From IMG/VR virus record IMGVR_UViG_3300010885_024818, positions 1 to 37,997 of that record: a stretch of 37,997 nucleotides of DNA. One strand, given 5' to 3'. The notes below the pieces were generated by a model. The model ran no database searches. It was not told where the DNA came from and saw nothing but the letters and a program-made list of their open reading frames with translations. Both the position numbers and the translations under genes were made by a program. Each line of letters begins with the position of its first letter. The first letter of the stretch is position 1. This DNA comes from a virus. This document shows positions 3,650 through 33,091 of the stretch, piece by piece.

Positions 3650-5008
3650 GTGTCTACGCTATTTACGCCCGACGAATGGCGAGTCCGCCTCTGGAATAAG
3701 GTGCTCTCTGATTCGTCGTCGCTGACTTTGTTGAGCCGCTACTACGAGGGTACTCAGCCGCTCACCTACATGGCGCCGGAACTGATCCGCGAACTCGCAC
3801 CGCGTATCACGTCGGTGGTAGTGAACTGGCCGCGTCTAGTGGTGGACTCTCTGGAAGAGCGTCTAGACGTAGAAGGTTTCCGACTGAATAGTTCAGTGGC
3901 CGATTCGTCTCTGTGGGATATCTGGCAGTCGAACGGTCTAGACGAGTTTTCACAACAGGCACACATCGACGCGCTCGCACTCGGTCGCGCATTCGTCATC
4001 GTCGGCGCGGGCGACAATGGCGGCCCGCCCGTCATCACTGTCGAATCAGCGTCACAGGTTGCGTGCTCTTTCGATCCGCGTACGCGCACCGTTCGCGCTG
4101 CTCTCAAATATTGGAAAGACACTGAGACGCTAGACGAGTTCGCCACGCTCTACTTGGCTGACTCAACTCACTACTACCTGAAGGTACGCGACGCCCGCGA
4201 CGTAGCGGAGTACCACGTCGATAACCATAACCTCGGCGTCGTCCCTGTCGTCCCGCTAGTGAACCGTCCGCGCATCTTGGCCCCGTGGGGTACGAGTGAA
4301 CTCGCCGACGTGCTCCCGCTCTCTGATGCGGCATGCAAGATCGCTACCGACATGATGGTCAGTGCGGAGTATCACGCCATGCCACGCCGTTGGGTCGTCG
4401 GGATGGGGCCGGAGGACTTTGAAGACCCCGATGGCAACACGATCAGTGAATGGTCACGCATCGCCGGTCGTGTCTGGGCGGCGCAAGGGTCACCCGCTGA
4501 AGTTTCGATGGGTCAATTCCCGGAAGCGAACCTATCGAACTTTCACGACACTTTGAACACACTGTCCAAGATGGTCGCCGCGATGGCAGGCTTACCGCCG
4601 CACGCGCTCGGCATGACGACCGATAACCCGGCGTCTGCTGATGCGATCCGCTCGGCTGAATCGCGTCTAGTGAAACGTGCCGAACGCCGACAGCGTGCAT
4701 TCGGTGAGGCATGGGAAGCGGTGCTACGTCTTGCGCTACAGGTGCAAGGTATCGACGTGACTGGTACTGAACGTATGGAAACTATCTGGCGTGATCCGGC
4801 TACGCCGACCATCGCACAGAAAGCCGATGCGGCTGTGAAACTGTTCACCGCCGGAGTCGTTCCGCTACGTCAAGTACGCGAAGACTTGGGTTACTCAGTT
4901 GAGCAGATCGACCGCATGGAGTTACAAGACTCTAGCGCCGCTGCTCGCGTTCTGGCCGGAGACTTCTCGTCTCTCGTCGGAGGTAAGCCGCCGGTCACTG
5001 GCCCGTAA
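3650..5008 (+). CDS. portal protein
   Basis: A 452-residue protein starting with GTG at 3650 after GGGAGGCT. Position directly after terminase, length and sequence features (a YYEG motif near residues 31-34, IRELAPRITSVVVNWPRLVVD near 45-65, the mid-protein wing region and a C-terminal helical part) fit SPP1-type/actinophage portals. Twelve copies form the ring at one capsid vertex through which DNA passes and on which the connector assembles. The MuF gene follows 15 nt downstream. I see nothing unusual in it. Confidence 0.92.
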   Translation: MSTLFTPDEWRVRLWNKVLSDSSSLTLLSRYYEGTQPLTYMAPELIRELAPRITSVVVNWPRLVVDSLEERLDVEGFRLNSSVADSSLWDIWQSNGLDEFSQQAHIDALALGRAFVIVGAGDNGGPPVITVESASQVACSFDPRTRTVRAALKYWKDTETLDEFATLYLADSTHYYLKVRDARDVAEYHVDNHNLGVVPVVPLVNRPRILAPWGTSELADVLPLSDAACKIATDMMVSAEYHAMPRRWVVGMGPEDFEDPDGNTISEWSRIAGRVWAAQGSPAEVSMGQFPEANLSNFHDTLNTLSKMVAAMAGLPPHALGMTTDNPASADAIRSAESRLVKRAERRQRAFGEAWEAVLRLALQVQGIDVTGTERMETIWRDPATPTIAQKADAAVKLFTAGVVPLRQVREDLGYSVEQIDRMELQDSSAAARVLAGDFSSLVGGKPPVTGP

Positions 5009-5023: not shown

Positions 5024-7567
5024 GTGGCTAGTTCAAATATCGCCGACGCCTACTATCGTCGCTCGGCAGCATTAGCGAAAGGCACCGCGCAACGCGTACA
5101 ACACATCTGGAAGCAGAAGATCGGCACCGCTGATCCGGCGGGCGACTTCTGGACTGGCGGTGTCGGCGAGGAACTCGCGCAGACCATCTCGGTGGGCCAG
5201 TTCGCGGCAGCACAAACAGCCGGGGACTATGTGGATTCAGTCGCACTAGACGCCGGTCTAGACGGCTCACCGCTCACTGTTGACGCTCGCGCATTCGCTG
5301 GACTTACTGACGCGGGCGGCTCTTTGAAGAGTGCTCTCTATCAAGGTCTACTGCAACAGGTTGCCGACATGGCAGCAGGACGTAACCGGGTGGAAGCACA
5401 GAGCGCGGCTCTCGGTCGTGCTGTGCTGCTCGGCGGGAATGAGACGGCGCTCGCATCGCGTAACGCGGAAGCGGCAGCAATCGGCGCCCACCCGAAGTTC
5501 GGCGGATACTTTAGACAACTCACCCCGCCATCCTGTGATCGTTGCGTCGTCCTCGCGGGCAAGTGGTATCACTGGAATGCCGGATTCTTGCGGCATCCGT
5601 ACTGCGACTGTATTCACGTTCCGATAGAGGCAGCAGATACGACAGGTGCTCCGGCGCTGTTCTCACCGGAAGGCTATTTCGCGGCACTGTCGCGGGCGGA
5701 ACAGGACAAGCAGTTCGGCTTAGCAGCAGCGGAAGCGATCCGTAACGGTGCCGACATGGGCCGCGTGATTAACGCCTCACAATCGACCACTATCGCCGGT
5801 ATCTATAAGGGCGGTAAAAAGGGCTACATATACGGCCAGAAGGCTATCGGCGGACGCCGGATGCGTGGCACTCCCACGACGCTAGGTGTCGGCGACATTA
5901 TGCGCCTAGCCGGTGGCGATAAAGAGAAGTTTCGACAACTGCTAGCACAGCACGGCTACATGGTGTCGCGCATATTCACACCGCAACCATTCACACCGGG
6001 TAAGCCGTGGGACTGGGCGAAGATCGACGCGGCAGCGGGGCGCATCACTGTTGTGCCTAAGACATGGCAAGAGTCGTGGCGTACTGAAATAGACGGTGTA
6101 CCGGCTGATCGTCACGCATTCGGGAAGATCAGTTACATACCGGATGATCTCAAACTGATGATAGACACACAGGCGCAACTAGAACGCGATCTACCGTCTG
6201 TCGTTGCGGCACTACCAAACGGGTTGAGCGCAGAGAAACTGTGGGCGTCGTTACCGGCGGAGACGCGGCGACGATTCGATCATCTAGGTCTAGGGCTTGA
6301 TGATCTCGTCTCGCAAGTTGAAGTGTTCGGGCAGGAGAACGTGAAGGCCGCACTAGATGCGCTACTCAGTGACTCCGGCTCATACCTGACGAACCGTGTA
6401 GCACACATAGCAAAAGATGCCCCCTACGATTCGGCTACCGCTGCTGAACATCTGGCGGCAACGATCCGCGCCGGAGATGTGCTGTCTACTGAACTGGACA
6501 GGCGCATTCAGGCTCGCGTCGTATCGGAGGGTCTGACCTTTGATACGTCGGCTATCGCACGTTACGACGCGATGACAGCGGCTATCGCCAAGTATGACGA
6601 ACTACCCGCGATACGGACGGCTGTCGCTGATGCGAAGGCGCAAGGATTCGACATAACGGCGAAAGACTTAGCGGAGCACGCTCGCATCATTTCTCTCACT
6701 GATGGCGGGTGGGCAGCAGCACGCGCCCTACCTGATGCTGAACTTCTAGCACGTTGCGACCGGCGCGGGTGGCCTCACTCGGTGATCGACGTACTACGCG
6801 ATCCGGCGACAGAGAGAAATATGGCGGCCCGTGCCGCACAGAAGGACATGATCGTAGAAGTATCGAAAGTGAAAGAGGCTATCAAGTACGGGCGCGGCTT
6901 ATGTTCTGCTGGAGATTATGCGCGGCTGCAACGTGAAGAGACGCTGAAGATTCTCAGTGAAATACGCGAAATGGGCGGGGGACGCTTCCCCGGTTATAGC
7001 GTGAAGAGCGGTGTCGCTCACGATCTACTGGACTACGCGTTCGGCTCGTATCCGTCAGAATGGAACACTGCTGTCCATGACGGTATCGGTCGTATCGACG
7101 TGAAGTACGGTCGGGATATTCGCGGCTACAACGCTGACAATGGCGCGACGATTCGCATCGGAGGCACGGTGCGAGGTGTTGACCAGATCGGAATATACGG
7201 TAGTTCGGCGGAGGCTACGGCTGTCCATGAGGTAGGTCACTCTATGGAGGAAGTTATCGCCGGTCTGAAAGAGGCAGAGTGGGCGTTCATTGAAAGCCGC
7301 CGCACCTCCGAAACGGTGGAGAGTCTCGGTAAAGGTATGGAACGGGAAATGTATTTCCCCGGCCCGTGGCGTGAGAACTATACGGGTAAGGATTACAATA
7401 GAAGAGGGCAAGCAGCGTGGACACAATCACGCGAAGTGTTCACTACAGGTGTTGAGTCTCTACTCTCAGGCTCGCGCCATTTCGTCGGTACTACAGATGC
7501 CGCCATCGAACTAGGTTTCGATGATGAACTCCGCTCATTCATCCTAGGGGTGCTAAGTGGTTTCTAA
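5024..7567 (+). CDS. MuF-type minor head protein fused to a zincin-like domain
   Basis: An 847-residue protein, GTG start at 5024 after GGAGGCGG. Residues 1-250 look like the MuF/minor head module, including the Cys-rich segment C171xxC174 ... C194xC196. This module normally binds the portal inside the capsid and may be ejected with DNA. The remaining ~600 residues are an extension: a long helical middle and, near the C-terminus, HEVGH at 735-739, the zinc-binding HExxH signature of zincin metallopeptidases. E804 or E811 downstream could be a third ligand. Fusions of MuF to a C-terminal enzyme are the hallmark of MuF polymorphic toxins of temperate phages; an ejected protease or an internal prohead protease are both possible. 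No separate prohead protease gene is evident. The next gene overlaps its end. Confidence 0.85.
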   Translation: MASSNIADAYYRRSAALAKGTAQRVQHIWKQKIGTADPAGDFWTGGVGEELAQTISVGQFAAAQTAGDYVDSVALDAGLDGSPLTVDARAFAGLTDAGGSLKSALYQGLLQQVADMAAGRNRVEAQSAALGRAVLLGGNETALASRNAEAAAIGAHPKFGGYFRQLTPPSCDRCVVLAGKWYHWNAGFLRHPYCDCIHVPIEAADTTGAPALFSPEGYFAALSRAEQDKQFGLAAAEAIRNGADMGRVINASQSTTIAGIYKGGKKGYIYGQKAIGGRRMRGTPTTLGVGDIMRLAGGDKEKFRQLLAQHGYMVSRIFTPQPFTPGKPWDWAKIDAAAGRITVVPKTWQESWRTEIDGVPADRHAFGKISYIPDDLKLMIDTQAQLERDLPSVVAALPNGLSAEKLWASLPAETRRRFDHLGLGLDDLVSQVEVFGQENVKAALDALLSDSGSYLTNRVAHIAKDAPYDSATAAEHLAATIRAGDVLSTELDRRIQARVVSEGLTFDTSAIARYDAMTAAIAKYDELPAIRTAVADAKAQGFDITAKDLAEHARIISLTDGGWAAARALPDAELLARCDRRGWPHSVIDVLRDPATERNMAARAAQKDMIVEVSKVKEAIKYGRGLCSAGDYARLQREETLKILSEIREMGGGRFPGYSVKSGVAHDLLDYAFGSYPSEWNTAVHDGIGRIDVKYGRDIRGYNADNGATIRIGGTVRGVDQIGIYGSSAEATAVHEVGHSMEEVIAGLKEAEWAFIESRRTSETVESLGKGMEREMYFPGPWRENYTGKDYNRRGQAAWTQSREVFTTGVESLLSGSRHFVGTTDAAIELGFDDELRSFILGVLSGF

Positions 7568-7850
7568 CTCATTCACCGCGACGCTCCCTAGTGGGGTCGT
7601 CATCACATGGCGGGCTGAACCGGATACGTTCGGCTCTCACCTGTCAGGTGATGCGTACGCCGTGTCTGCGCTCATGCTGGAACTCGTCCAAGATGATGAC
7701 TTCCCCTTGACGCCGACCGGCCCTGACTATCCATGCGACCCGTCCGATCCTGTATCGGTAGCCATCGCATTGGATCGGCTATATCCCGGCACTACGGGCG
7801 CCCCTGAGTGGGCGCATCTCGTACCTAGCAGCGGGGACGTTCTCTACTAA
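7557..7850 (+). CDS. small acidic protein overlapping MuF gene; possible immunity partner
   Basis: A 97-residue acidic protein with no family I recognise. The GTG at 7557 lies inside the end of the MuF gene (11-nt overlap), with AGGGG upstream, so the two are translationally coupled. It has no signal peptide or membrane segment; its middle is acidic (QDDDF) and proline-rich. In MuF polymorphic toxin loci the gene directly after the toxin often encodes its immunity protein, and a small acidic cytosolic protein fits that role. It could equally be a small head protein. The immunity role is inference from position only. Confidence 0.7.
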   Translation: MVSNSFTATLPSGVVITWRAEPDTFGSHLSGDAYAVSALMLELVQDDDFPLTPTGPDYPCDPSDPVSVAIALDRLYPGTTGAPEWAHLVPSSGDVLY

Positions 7851-7921: not shown

Positions 7922-8488
7922 ATGGAACCCGTTACACCTACCGACGTTGCCGCACCTGTTGAGGTAACACCCGCCGCTGATGAGCCGACAACTCCTGCCC
8001 CGCTTACGGGCGAGGAAGATTCGCTAGGCGAGGGCGGTAAGCGTGCTCTCGATGCGGAACGTCGCGCCCGTCGTGCTGCTGATAAGCAGACAGCGGAACT
8101 CTCTGCTCGTCTCAAAGAGATTGAGGATAGGGATAAGAGCGAGACTGAACGTCTCGCCGACCGTTTGAAAGATGCAGAGGCGGAAGCGTCTGTGTTGAAG
8201 TCTGAAGCGATCAAGTTGCGCGTAGCGGCTGAGGTCGGCTTGCCGAATGAACTTACAGAGTTTCTATCCGCAGGGGATGAAGAAACTGTGAGAGCACAGG
8301 CAGAGAAACTGCTAGCCGCGACGGCAGCACGCCGGGGAACTCCGGCACCTGATCCGACTCAAGGCGCTAAGCCTGCGGGCGGTATCTCTCAACTCTCAGA
8401 AGCGGACTTGGCGGGCATGTCTACAGAGGCAATTGTCAAGGCTAAGTCAGAGGGCCGGTTTAACGACCTGCTCGGAATCCGCTCCTAA
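7922..8488 (+). CDS. capsid scaffolding protein
   Basis: A 188-residue protein, ATG at 7922 after GAGGAG. An acidic, Pro/Thr-rich N-terminus (1-37) is followed by a long charged helix predicted to form a coiled coil (about 40-105: AERRARRAADKQ, DRDKSETERLADRL), then a segment around 105-140 (GLPNELTEFLSAGDEE) typical of phage scaffold proteins, and a C-terminus that probably binds coat. It guides assembly of the major capsid protein into a prohead and leaves before DNA packaging. It lies immediately upstream of the capsid gene, the standard order. Confidence 0.88.
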   Translation: MEPVTPTDVAAPVEVTPAADEPTTPAPLTGEEDSLGEGGKRALDAERRARRAADKQTAELSARLKEIEDRDKSETERLADRLKDAEAEASVLKSEAIKLRVAAEVGLPNELTEFLSAGDEETVRAQAEKLLAATAARRGTPAPDPTQGAKPAGGISQLSEADLAGMSTEAIVKAKSEGRFNDLLGIRS

Positions 8489-8518: not shown

Positions 8519-9361
8519 ATGGCTATTAGCAATTTTCAGCCGACCCTATGGTCGGCGACCCTGCTTGACTCATTGAAGAATAGTCTCGTCTTTGCAGGCC
8601 CAAACGTCGCTAACCGCACGTATGAAGGTCAGATTCAGAGCGCCGGTACTTCAGTGAAGATCACGAACGTATCCGACCCGACCGTGAATTCGTTCACGAA
8701 GGATACGGATATCACGGTGCAGGCTCTCACCGATGCGACGACCTCGCTCACCATTGACCAGCAGAAGTACTTTGCTTTCGAGGTCGATGATCTGGATAAG
8801 GTGCAGTCTGCCGGTGTCGTTCTGGATCAGGCCGCCGTTCAGGCCGCGTACGCGTTGCGTAACGTCGCCGATGGTGTTGTCGCTGCTGAGATCAAGGCCA
8901 ACACTCTCGCCGGTAACAAACTCGGCGCAACTGCTGTCTCATCTGCCGATCTCGCATTCAGTCTGCTGAAGGACATCTGGGTCAAGATGACTAAGAACAA
9001 TGTCCCGGTAGATGGTCGCTGGGTCGTCGTTCATCCTGAACTGTACGGCAAGTTCCTGATCGACAATCGGTTCGTGAATGCGAACCTCGCCGGAACTGAT
9101 CAGGGTCTGCGTAACGGTATCGTCGGTCGCGCCCTCGGTTTCGACATCTATGTGTCGAACAACTGCGCCGCCGGAGCGAGCACCGGAACTATCGTCAGTG
9201 CCGGTCACCCGATGGGACTCGCCTACGCTGATCAGATTCTGAAGGTGGAAGCGTTCCGCATGGAGAAGCGTTTCGCAGATGGCATTAAGGGTCTGCATGT
9301 GTACGGCACTAAGGTGATCCGTCCCTCGGCTCTCGTCACTGCTGACGTAACCGTCTCGTAG
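8519..9361 (+). CDS. major capsid protein (HK97-type fold)
   Basis: A 280-residue protein, ATG at 8519. The N-terminus (FQPTLWSATLLDSL), the strand-rich middle with VKITNVSDPTVNSF, the FEVDDLDK segment near residues 83-90, the domain with WVVVHPELYGKFL near residues 164-176 and the C-terminal ADGIKGLHVYGTKVI pattern are characteristic of short HK97-fold coat proteins from actinophages. Hundreds of copies form the icosahedral shell. No long N-terminal delta domain is present, consistent with a separate scaffold gene. Codon choice is more uniform and GC-ending than in neighbours, as expected for a highly expressed gene. Confidence 0.94.
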   Translation: MAISNFQPTLWSATLLDSLKNSLVFAGPNVANRTYEGQIQSAGTSVKITNVSDPTVNSFTKDTDITVQALTDATTSLTIDQQKYFAFEVDDLDKVQSAGVVLDQAAVQAAYALRNVADGVVAAEIKANTLAGNKLGATAVSSADLAFSLLKDIWVKMTKNNVPVDGRWVVVHPELYGKFLIDNRFVNANLAGTDQGLRNGIVGRALGFDIYVSNNCAAGASTGTIVSAGHPMGLAYADQILKVEAFRMEKRFADGIKGLHVYGTKVIRPSALVTADVTVS

Positions 9362-21765: not shown

Positions 21766-22473
21766 TCATTCGCTGATCCCTAGCGACTTGCGGGCGGCGT
21801 CTAGACCACTCGTCCGCGCCCGTTGCACGGCGGAGCGGGACATCTCAACTTCCTCCGATATTTCGCCGTCGCTCAGTGGCCGGTAGGAGTCGAACGCGTA
21901 GGCCAGTCGCACGACGCGACGTTGTGTGTCGTCCATCGCTCCTAGTGCTTGACGGCTCATCACCTGATCGTCGATGGAGTCGTAGAGGTCGTTCGTGTCT
22001 GCCGGTTCGGCTAGCCCTAACGGCAACTCTTCCCGCGTGACAGCCGCGTGAATGGCGCTAAACGTCTCACGCGTCATCCCATGTTCTTGAGCAGAGATGG
22101 AGGAACGATTCACGTCTCCATCGCAGGCGCGAAGGATCGCCCAATAGCGGGTTAGGGTGCGGGCTGGTATCTGAATATGTCCGGCGCTGGATGCGGCCCC
22201 GGTCAACTCTTCTAACATGTAGCCGATCACGATGGCGGCCAGTCGGTCATACTTGGCCGGATCGTAGGCGGCTATGGCGGTGAGGATTCCTAGCCGCGCT
22301 GTCTGGAGGGCGTCCTCCGCGTCCAGTGTGCTCCCGAATCGGTTCGCGGCAGCGCGTGCAGCATTGTCGTAGGCGGCGAGTAACTGTTCGGTGGCCGCAT
22401 GGTCACCGTTCTGTGCAGCAGCGATCAGGGCGCCCTCTGCGGCGGCGTCGGGGATGCGTGGTAGATGGGACAT
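21766..22473 (-). CDS. sigma-70-like transcription factor
   Basis: 235 residues, ATG at 22473 after GGAGGAAAC. Residues 12-75 resemble sigma region 2 (AAQNGDHAATEQLLAAYDNAARAAANRF, then DAEDALQTARLGILTAIAAYDP, the core-binding and -10-recognising helices). Residues 178-232 resemble region 4 (DDTQRRVVRLAYAF, then a helix-turn-helix PLSDGEISEEVEMSRSAVQRAR), which would contact a -35 element. The linker (99-165) resembles region 3 only weakly. It could redirect host RNA polymerase to the repeated phage promoters in the right arm; this is inference. Sequences upstream of the gene include an exact copy of the 15-bp core of those promoters. Confidence 0.85.
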   Translation of the reverse strand: MSHLPRIPDAAAEGALIAAAQNGDHAATEQLLAAYDNAARAAANRFGSTLDAEDALQTARLGILTAIAAYDPAKYDRLAAIVIGYMLEELTGAASSAGHIQIPARTLTRYWAILRACDGDVNRSSISAQEHGMTRETFSAIHAAVTREELPLGLAEPADTNDLYDSIDDQVMSRQALGAMDDTQRRVVRLAYAFDSYRPLSDGEISEEVEMSRSAVQRARTSGLDAARKSLGISE

Positions 22474-31699: not shown

Positions 31700-33091
31700 G
31701 TGAAAGCCGCCCTGTACGTCCGCCTCTCCTCCTACCGGGGTGCCGCCGACCCATCGACTAGCCCCGAACGACAGGAAGAGATAGGCCGCAACTATGCCGC
31801 CGCTCGCGGCTGGAACGTGTCCACCGTCATACGCGACCTAGACGTGAGCGGCAGCAGTAAAGGGGAACGACTAGACCGCTCCGGCCTCCGCGATGTACGA
31901 AACCTGTTCGGCCAGATCGACGTACTCATCGTGTCCAAAGTAGATCGCCTCGCCCGCGACACACTGGACTTCCTCGCATTCGCTGAAGAGTGTGATCGCA
32001 ACGGTGTCGCCCTCGTCAGCGTCGCCGAATCGCTAGACATGACAACACCCGGCGGAAAGTTCACCGCCACCATCCTCGCCGCATTCGCAGAGATGGAAGC
32101 CAAGACGATCAGCGAACGAACAGCAGCAGGCCGCGCCGGAACCATCAGCGCCGGACGCTACCCGGGCGGCAGAGTGCCCTACGGATATCGCACCGTGCCG
32201 CACGCGTCGGGCGCAGGACGCGGGCTAGACGTTGTACCAGAGGAGGCAGCACATATCCGCTCTGCTGCTGCTCACGTCATAGCAGGGGGAACTCTCTACT
32301 CTGCTGTTCAACTGATCGGAGCGCACGGTTCAGTACCGCGCACCGCTCCAACATGGACGAGCGCATCGTTACGCGTCGTCTTAATGAACACCGTCCTCTT
32401 GGGCTACCAGAAAGAGCAGGGCCGCGACGTACTAAGCAGCGATGGAACTCCCGCCGTCTACTGGCCGCCGATCATCGACACGGAAACACATCGACAACTC
32501 GTCGCACGACTAACACCGACCAAACAGCGCCGCCGTGCTCGCGCCGACTATCTACTGTCCGGCGTGCTCACCTGTGCGAACTGTGGACATGTTCTATACG
32601 CGACGAACCGGAGCCGTTACGCGACGTACCGGTGCCCCACCGAAACAGGATGTGTGGGGCGTGTAGAGATTCAGTGTGGACTCGCAGAGTCAGAAGTAGT
32701 CGGCGACTTTCTTGCCCGCTACGGCTATGAAGAGGTCTACTACACGATCACCGAAACGGCGCCGGAGCACTCGCACCGGCTCGCGGCGGTGGAGTCAGGC
32801 TTACGGGCGACCGCCGACGAGTTGACACGTCCCGGCGCCGACATGGCCGGACTGCTGGAGCGTCTAAACGCGCTACGCGATGAACGCGAACTACTCGCCG
32901 CGAAAGGGCCGACCATCGTGAACCGTCGCGTCTCGGCGGGGATGACTGTCGCCGACCTGTTCGCCGAACTGGGGGAGACGCCGGGAAGTGTCCGCGAATG
33001 CCGGGAACGTATCGCTGAACATCTGGTATCAGCGGTGGTATCAGGTCGCGCCGCGTCCGGTAACCGCCGAATCGTGACGGTGTGGCGGTAG
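31700..33091 (+). CDS. int: serine integrase (large serine recombinase)
   Basis: 463 residues, GTG at 31700. Catalytic domain 1-150: S10 in YVRLSS, then DRSGLRDVRNLF and SKVDRLARDTLDF, a standard resolvase fold. The recombinase domain includes GGRVPYGYRTVP near 155-166 and TSASLRVVLMN near 220-230. The zinc ribbon begins with C292xxC295, and a coiled coil lies around residues 350-410. Length is normal for actinophage serine integrases. It inserts the phage genome between attP and attB by strand exchange; the attP site usually adjoins the gene, and a strong dyad lies just downstream. It proves a temperate life style. Confidence 0.96.
   Translation: MKAALYVRLSSYRGAADPSTSPERQEEIGRNYAAARGWNVSTVIRDLDVSGSSKGERLDRSGLRDVRNLFGQIDVLIVSKVDRLARDTLDFLAFAEECDRNGVALVSVAESLDMTTPGGKFTATILAAFAEMEAKTISERTAAGRAGTISAGRYPGGRVPYGYRTVPHASGAGRGLDVVPEEAAHIRSAAAHVIAGGTLYSAVQLIGAHGSVPRTAPTWTSASLRVVLMNTVLLGYQKEQGRDVLSSDGTPAVYWPPIIDTETHRQLVARLTPTKQRRRARADYLLSGVLTCANCGHVLYATNRSRYATYRCPTETGCVGRVEIQCGLAESEVVGDFLARYGYEEVYYTITETAPEHSHRLAAVESGLRATADELTRPGADMAGLLERLNALRDERELLAAKGPTIVNRRVSAGMTVADLFAELGETPGSVRECRERIAEHLVSAVVSGRAASGNRRIVTVWR

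Follow-up and report, generated by a model that had tools for sequence, protein, structure and literature searches.

What does a domain bearing the motif of a zinc metallopeptidase do at the end of a phage minor head protein, and why is its gene overlapped by a small one that belongs to no catalogued family? These questions are raised by IMGVR_UViG_3300010885_024818, a viral record of 37,997 bases that was analysed over its whole length and is called here the window, in which terminase, portal, MuF, scaffold and capsid genes follow one another in that order. An earlier note, made from the letters of this DNA alone, had proposed a MuF head protein fused to a zincin, together with a coupled immunity gene. 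The analysis described below favours the same answer: the pair is probably a MuF polymorphic toxin and the matching immunity protein, in which the zincin would be an effector protease restrained by its partner. The features that the argument needs are the following.

3650-5008 (+): portal protein gene, adjoining the MuF-zincin gene upstream (PF05133, E 4.1e-45)
5024-7567 (+): MuF-zincin fusion gene, 847 aa, GTG start, with an SD-like GGAGG upstream (ORF call)
5030-5995 (+): MuF-type minor head domain, residues 3-324 (phrog_1522, E 1.2e-52; tblastn to actinophage MuF proteins)
5996-6931 (+): spacer, residues 325-636, with no recognised domain
6932-7564 (+): zincin domain, residues about 637-847 (phrog_8561, tblastn, family alignments, model)
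7226-7240 (+): HEVGH, residues 735-739, with proposed zinc ligands H735 and H739 and general base E736 (invariant in alignments)
7433-7435 (+): E804, putative third ligand of the zinc, within the helix motif E-[VIL]-[FLV]-[ST]-x-G (invariant in 54-70 sequences)
7557-7850 (+): acidic partner, 97 aa, GTG start, proposed immunity protein (overlaps the zincin gene by 11 nt)
7833-7847 (+): C-terminal tail of the partner, GDVLY, proposed active-site plug (conserved among partners; low model confidence)
7922-8488 (+): scaffolding protein gene (phrog_1793, E 3.2e-21)
8519-9361 (+): major capsid protein gene (phrog_267, E 6.5e-65)
31700-33091 (+): large serine integrase gene (PF00239, E 9e-32; phrog_95, E 5.5e-86)

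The window phage is probably temperate, as is predicted from its large serine integrase. The structural module is followed immediately by a gene for a sigma-70-like factor in the opposite orientation (21766-22473, minus strand).

A minor head protein with a long extension

The gene limits read by the earlier note were reproduced, with a single HEVGH in the 847-residue frame and a next frame that overlaps it by 11 nt. Its recognition of a MuF-like N-terminus was borne out by the phrog_1522 match and by tblastn matches of residues 3-324 to MuF-like minor head proteins of Streptomyces, Arthrobacter and Brevibacterium phages; the MuF models of Pfam gave no match to this region. The domain, which contains a cluster of cysteines (C171/C174/C194/C196), lies directly downstream of the portal gene, the portal ending at 5008 and the fusion gene starting at 5024. 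In Streptomyces phage Nesbitt the MuF homologue is only about 348 aa long and the scaffold gene comes directly after it. The window protein runs on past the normal MuF end and closes with the conserved zincin; extra C-terminal residues had been noted from the start, and they are present, at about 520 and not the 600 or so first estimated. The spacer within this extension had no match in Pfam, PHROGs or NCBIfam, and its single weak match (E 0.004) was to another zincin protein, that of locus L177. No close relatives were returned when viral contigs were scanned with the whole gene as a single-protein query.

In phrog_1522 and in several GenBank records, the MuF family is labelled as a head or capsid maturation protease. 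The region matched under the name “head maturation protease” lies in MuF, outside the zincin, and the label on that part is apparently misleading; if true, the toxin reading argues the same for the label on the family.

The zincin domain and its carriers

In alignments of 54-70 diverse relatives, H735, E736, H739, E742, Y786, G788, E804 and D833 are invariant, a set as would be expected for a zinc site of two histidines and a glutamate with a catalytic glutamate. The AlphaFold2 model of the domain (pLDDT 82.8, pTM 0.83) places HExxH on a helix, and its best 10 PDB neighbours are all zincins, for example Zmp1/PPEP-1, LTA4 hydrolase, AsaP1 and Wss1, with fold matches that are weak and in no case significant (E 0.17-0.4). 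The earlier note had named a predicted fold without a zinc site as evidence against its reading; the modelled fold is zincin-like and the HExxH...E pattern is conserved, this part of the answer being qualified by the weakness of those PDB matches. Since the residues are invariant in 54-70 relatives and the modelled fold is zincin-like, HEVGH is not a chance motif. A search of the zincin sequence against PDB sequences gave no match below E 0.09, a fold search of BFVD with the model returned six phage proteins at E<1e-3 (best TM 0.74), and one member of the family matches Peptidase_M90 (E 2.8e-4).

By tblastn, residues 637-844 share homology with the C-terminal part of minor head proteins from S. 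pyogenes phages, 315.3 among them (27.5% identity, E 9e-7 or about 1e-6), and weak homology (E 0.03) was obtained with the minor head protein of Bacillus phage vB_BboS-125. More than 80 further zincin loci came from alignment-based scans of IMG/VR, and the domain is also found in annotated phages of Lactococcus, Planktothrix, Vibrio and Flavobacterium; a scan with the window and locus L019 as query returned L019 alone. The only match of the genome scan, the weak bacterial locus L100, was excluded from the alignments. A MuF domain (PF04233 or PF06152) is present in 40 of the 54 full-length zincin proteins (39+1), and in the protein of L019 the zincin is the sole recognised domain.

The position of the zincin, which is nearly always at the extreme C-terminus, also fits a different explanation: a protease for self-processing or cargo release, which would cleave the MuF protein to which it belongs either ahead of packaging or afterwards, with the partner as a timing inhibitor or assembly chaperone. 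Self-processing or effector roles were proposed for phage zincin-like domains, self-processing among others for P1 DdrB, in the available portion of the work of Iyer and others on polyvalent proteins (Iyer et al., 2017; PMC5512222), and the 312-residue spacer without a known domain that separates MuF and zincin would suit such a cut. According to the same portion, those zincins resemble the window domain in having HExxH with a glutamate on a later helix and in belonging to multidomain, virion-associated phage proteins; the likeness is one of description, and dedicated partner genes are not mentioned there, whereas the window has one (PMC5512222). Against self-processing, no second effector domain was recognised that could be released, MuF proteins with unrelated toxin domains function without a protease, and the short zincin protein of locus L152 (194 aa) carries no other domain at all. 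Self-processing is considered unlikely.

The partner gene

A reading frame of 60-130 aa comes next after the zincin gene in 82 of the 87 loci where the end of the zincin gene is complete. A few zincin loci, such as that of Planktothrix phage PaV-LD, have no evident partner, and therefore the partner seems dispensable at some loci. In the window it is a protein of pI 4.05 and net charge -11 at pH 7, without a match in Pfam, PHROGs, NCBIfam or phage records. The description of it as a protein of no known family consequently holds for the catalogues, yet uncatalogued relatives adjoin the same zincin in other loci. The partner model (pLDDT 75.8) shows three strands, two helices and a C-terminal tail of low confidence, and its comparison with PDB folds gave nothing meaningful.

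Membership of the window protein in the partner family is moderately supported by profile comparison. Initial partner profiles did not single it out, and with a profile of all partners it ranks only 13th (E 12). With the profile of group B (18 members), a group picked after visual resemblance to the window partner, it comes first of 2598 (E 0.05) and outscores every one of about 18,000 composition-preserving shuffles, whether its last eight residues are kept or removed. The support is graded as only moderate because of the way in which group B was picked and because of the rank obtained with the profile of all partners.

The regular presence of a partner also bears on the view that the zincin, restrained by the partner until injection, is a protease that would then serve infection, in early host takeover or against host defences, and not the killing of competitors. 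Jamet and others considered that mildly toxic MuF peptidases might steer the choice between lysis and lysogeny or resist host defences (Jamet et al., 2017; PMC5576092), and some large proteins in other phages, for example in Vibrio phage VP-1, carry relatives of the zincin as well, as such a role would allow. However, a dedicated partner gene at nearly all loci suits immunity better, and a host-takeover role is judged less probable again than self-processing.

Portal-related phages

The extension can be compared with the MuF proteins of phages that have a related portal. A search with the portal protein gave 80 loci at 51-66% identity, about 70 of them with a MuF match, and the MuF proteins of these phages are about 27-42% identical to that of the window. 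In these roughly 70 relatives, nearly all MuF reading frames end at about residue 314-330, a few tens of residues at most from window residue 324, and have no zincin. The genuine exceptions are loci L082 and L083, where a MuF protein of 600 aa has another C-terminal extension, with a match to a PI3/4-kinase-like family (E 1.6e-6), and is followed by a 76-aa reading frame with a 4-nt overlap. Because the portal relatives mostly have no extension and these two have a kinase-like one, and because a small gene overlaps the extended gene in either case, the extension is accessory and exchangeable, which is the pattern of polymorphic toxins. The C-terminal domain is exchanged in that a related MuF carries the kinase-like domain and the same zincin is found on other MuF types.

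That the window phage uses the zincin as its prohead (capsid maturation) protease, the alternative offered by the earlier note, is very improbable, since the zincin is absent from nearly all portal-related MuF genes and Flavobacterium phage pippi8-1 has, besides a MuF-zincin (gp28) and its partner (gp29), a separate ClpP-like protease (gp34, PF00574); it was suggested by a head module with no other evident protease gene and by the database name of the MuF family, but scaffolding in this head is left to a protein of its own, as in SPP1, where the capsid undergoes no proteolysis. The main proposal of that note, a zincin MuF toxin with a coupled immunity gene, fared better, being favoured by the domain swapping, the mobility of the zincin, the near-obligate partner and the serine integrase.

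The frame at L082:3734-5536, with MuF and the PI3/4-kinase-like domain, forms another candidate MuF effector pair together with the 76-aa reading frame. Some other long frames were rejected: the long “MuF” frames of L028, L045, L089, L092 and L097 are wrong frames of GC-rich DNA, and the long MuF proteins of L057, L060, L061, L062, L064 and L067, considered as toxin fusions, owe their length to inteins instead, an intein-like insert of about 315 residues lying between the halves of a Cys motif (HPRC...CDC).

Relation to known systems

The kind of system is already known. Jamet and others described 191 putative MuF toxins, 20% of them with a metallopeptidase domain, and a small ORF follows 89% of the MuF toxin genes (Jamet et al., 2017; PMC5576092). 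Their metallopeptidase members have the layout of the window, with MuF after the portal, a C-terminal metallopeptidase, a downstream ORF of <150 aa and a temperate phage; the metallopeptidases are likened by description, and the window MuF belongs to the actinophage (MuF4/VG15-like) type, whereas theirs come mostly from Firmicutes (PMC5576092). Peptidase MuF toxins were predicted in 2017, and the experiments in the literature found concern nucleotide- and ADP-ribose-based members only.

These experimental precedents are Apk2/IapK and Bxa/Bsi, in which a bound small protein inhibits a MuF enzyme (PMC12226406; PMC11699363). Both resemble the window in gene layout, with a MuF carrier, a C-terminal enzyme and an adjacent small protein. 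Where the window is predicted to encode a protease, they have a (p)ppApp synthetase and an ADP-ribosyltransferase; both also carry second, enzymatic immunity genes, of which none was seen in the window.

Another example is S. pyogenes phage 315.3, where SpyM3_1120 is a minor head protein with the homologous C-terminal zincin described above and SpyM3_1119, a small gene of 77 aa, overlaps it by 4 nt and ends in ENAIY. The MuF type of SpyM3_1120 is unlike that of the window, and the core of SpyM3_1119 has no detectable similarity to the window partner. The window pair is real and probably an ordinary member of the predicted class, to which the shared tail adds a regularity; it would extend the class to the actinophage type of MuF and provides a concrete, small and testable protease-antidote candidate.

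A shared tail and a proposed mechanism

The 66 distinct partners, chosen by closeness to the zincin stop codon alone, differ widely but have a common tail, [GDN]-[AVI]-[IV]-Y. Position -2 is I or V in 64 of the 66, compared with 9.4% of background ORFs, and position -1 is Y in 43 (0.7% of the background), a contrast that is somewhat overstated because the background consists of six-frame ORFs, many of which are not genuine genes; the strict tail occurs in 38 of the 66, against 0 of 2597. Compared without their last 12 residues (BLAST, E 1e-3), the partner cores form three clusters, of 33, 20 and 7 members, and a number of singletons; no similarity was detectable between these, and yet the tail is kept across them. 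The window partner ends in SGDVLY, the Lactococcus gp32 in ENIIF and the Flavobacterium gp29 in PKEIY. A literature search over open-access papers other than preprints found none on the shared tail.

Since the tail accompanies the zincin on different carriers and with different partner cores, it would be the part that contacts the zincin, although it could serve something other than the active site. It is conceivable, and put forward here tentatively, that the partners form an unrecognised and very widespread class of zincin inhibitors, in which an inhibitory tail is borne on unrelated-looking cores as one antidote principle in phages of many bacterial phyla. A check of whether the motif is avoided inside the toxin was uninformative, because it is depleted there but control motifs are likewise.

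A mechanism may be proposed on this basis. Each virion is believed to contain 2-3 copies of its MuF protein, a minor head protein (PMC12226406), and from MuF biology the MuF domain would place a few copies of the fusion protein in the head near the portal. The C-terminal zincin would act as an effector protease, delivered to the cell along with the DNA or freed at lysis, and would cut a cytoplasmic target. The 97-aa protein would bind the zincin and block its activity both in lysogens and in the cell that makes the phage, the flexible tail of the partner (...GDVLY-COOH) probably lying in the active-site cleft as a product-like plug, a role suggested because the tail is the sole feature common to otherwise dissimilar partners. 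With a tail of five residues, deletion should separate immunity from folding, which makes the antidote mechanism directly testable.

Two variations in the genes after the zincin were observed. At the divergent zincin loci L172-L174 the next gene is longer (154-155 aa) and ends in ADVVD, without the usual tail. In vB_BboS-125 (L003:6360-6647) an unannotated, partner-like frame ending in ...EGAIV follows the zincin gene, its full length being reached only with ATT among the starts tried.
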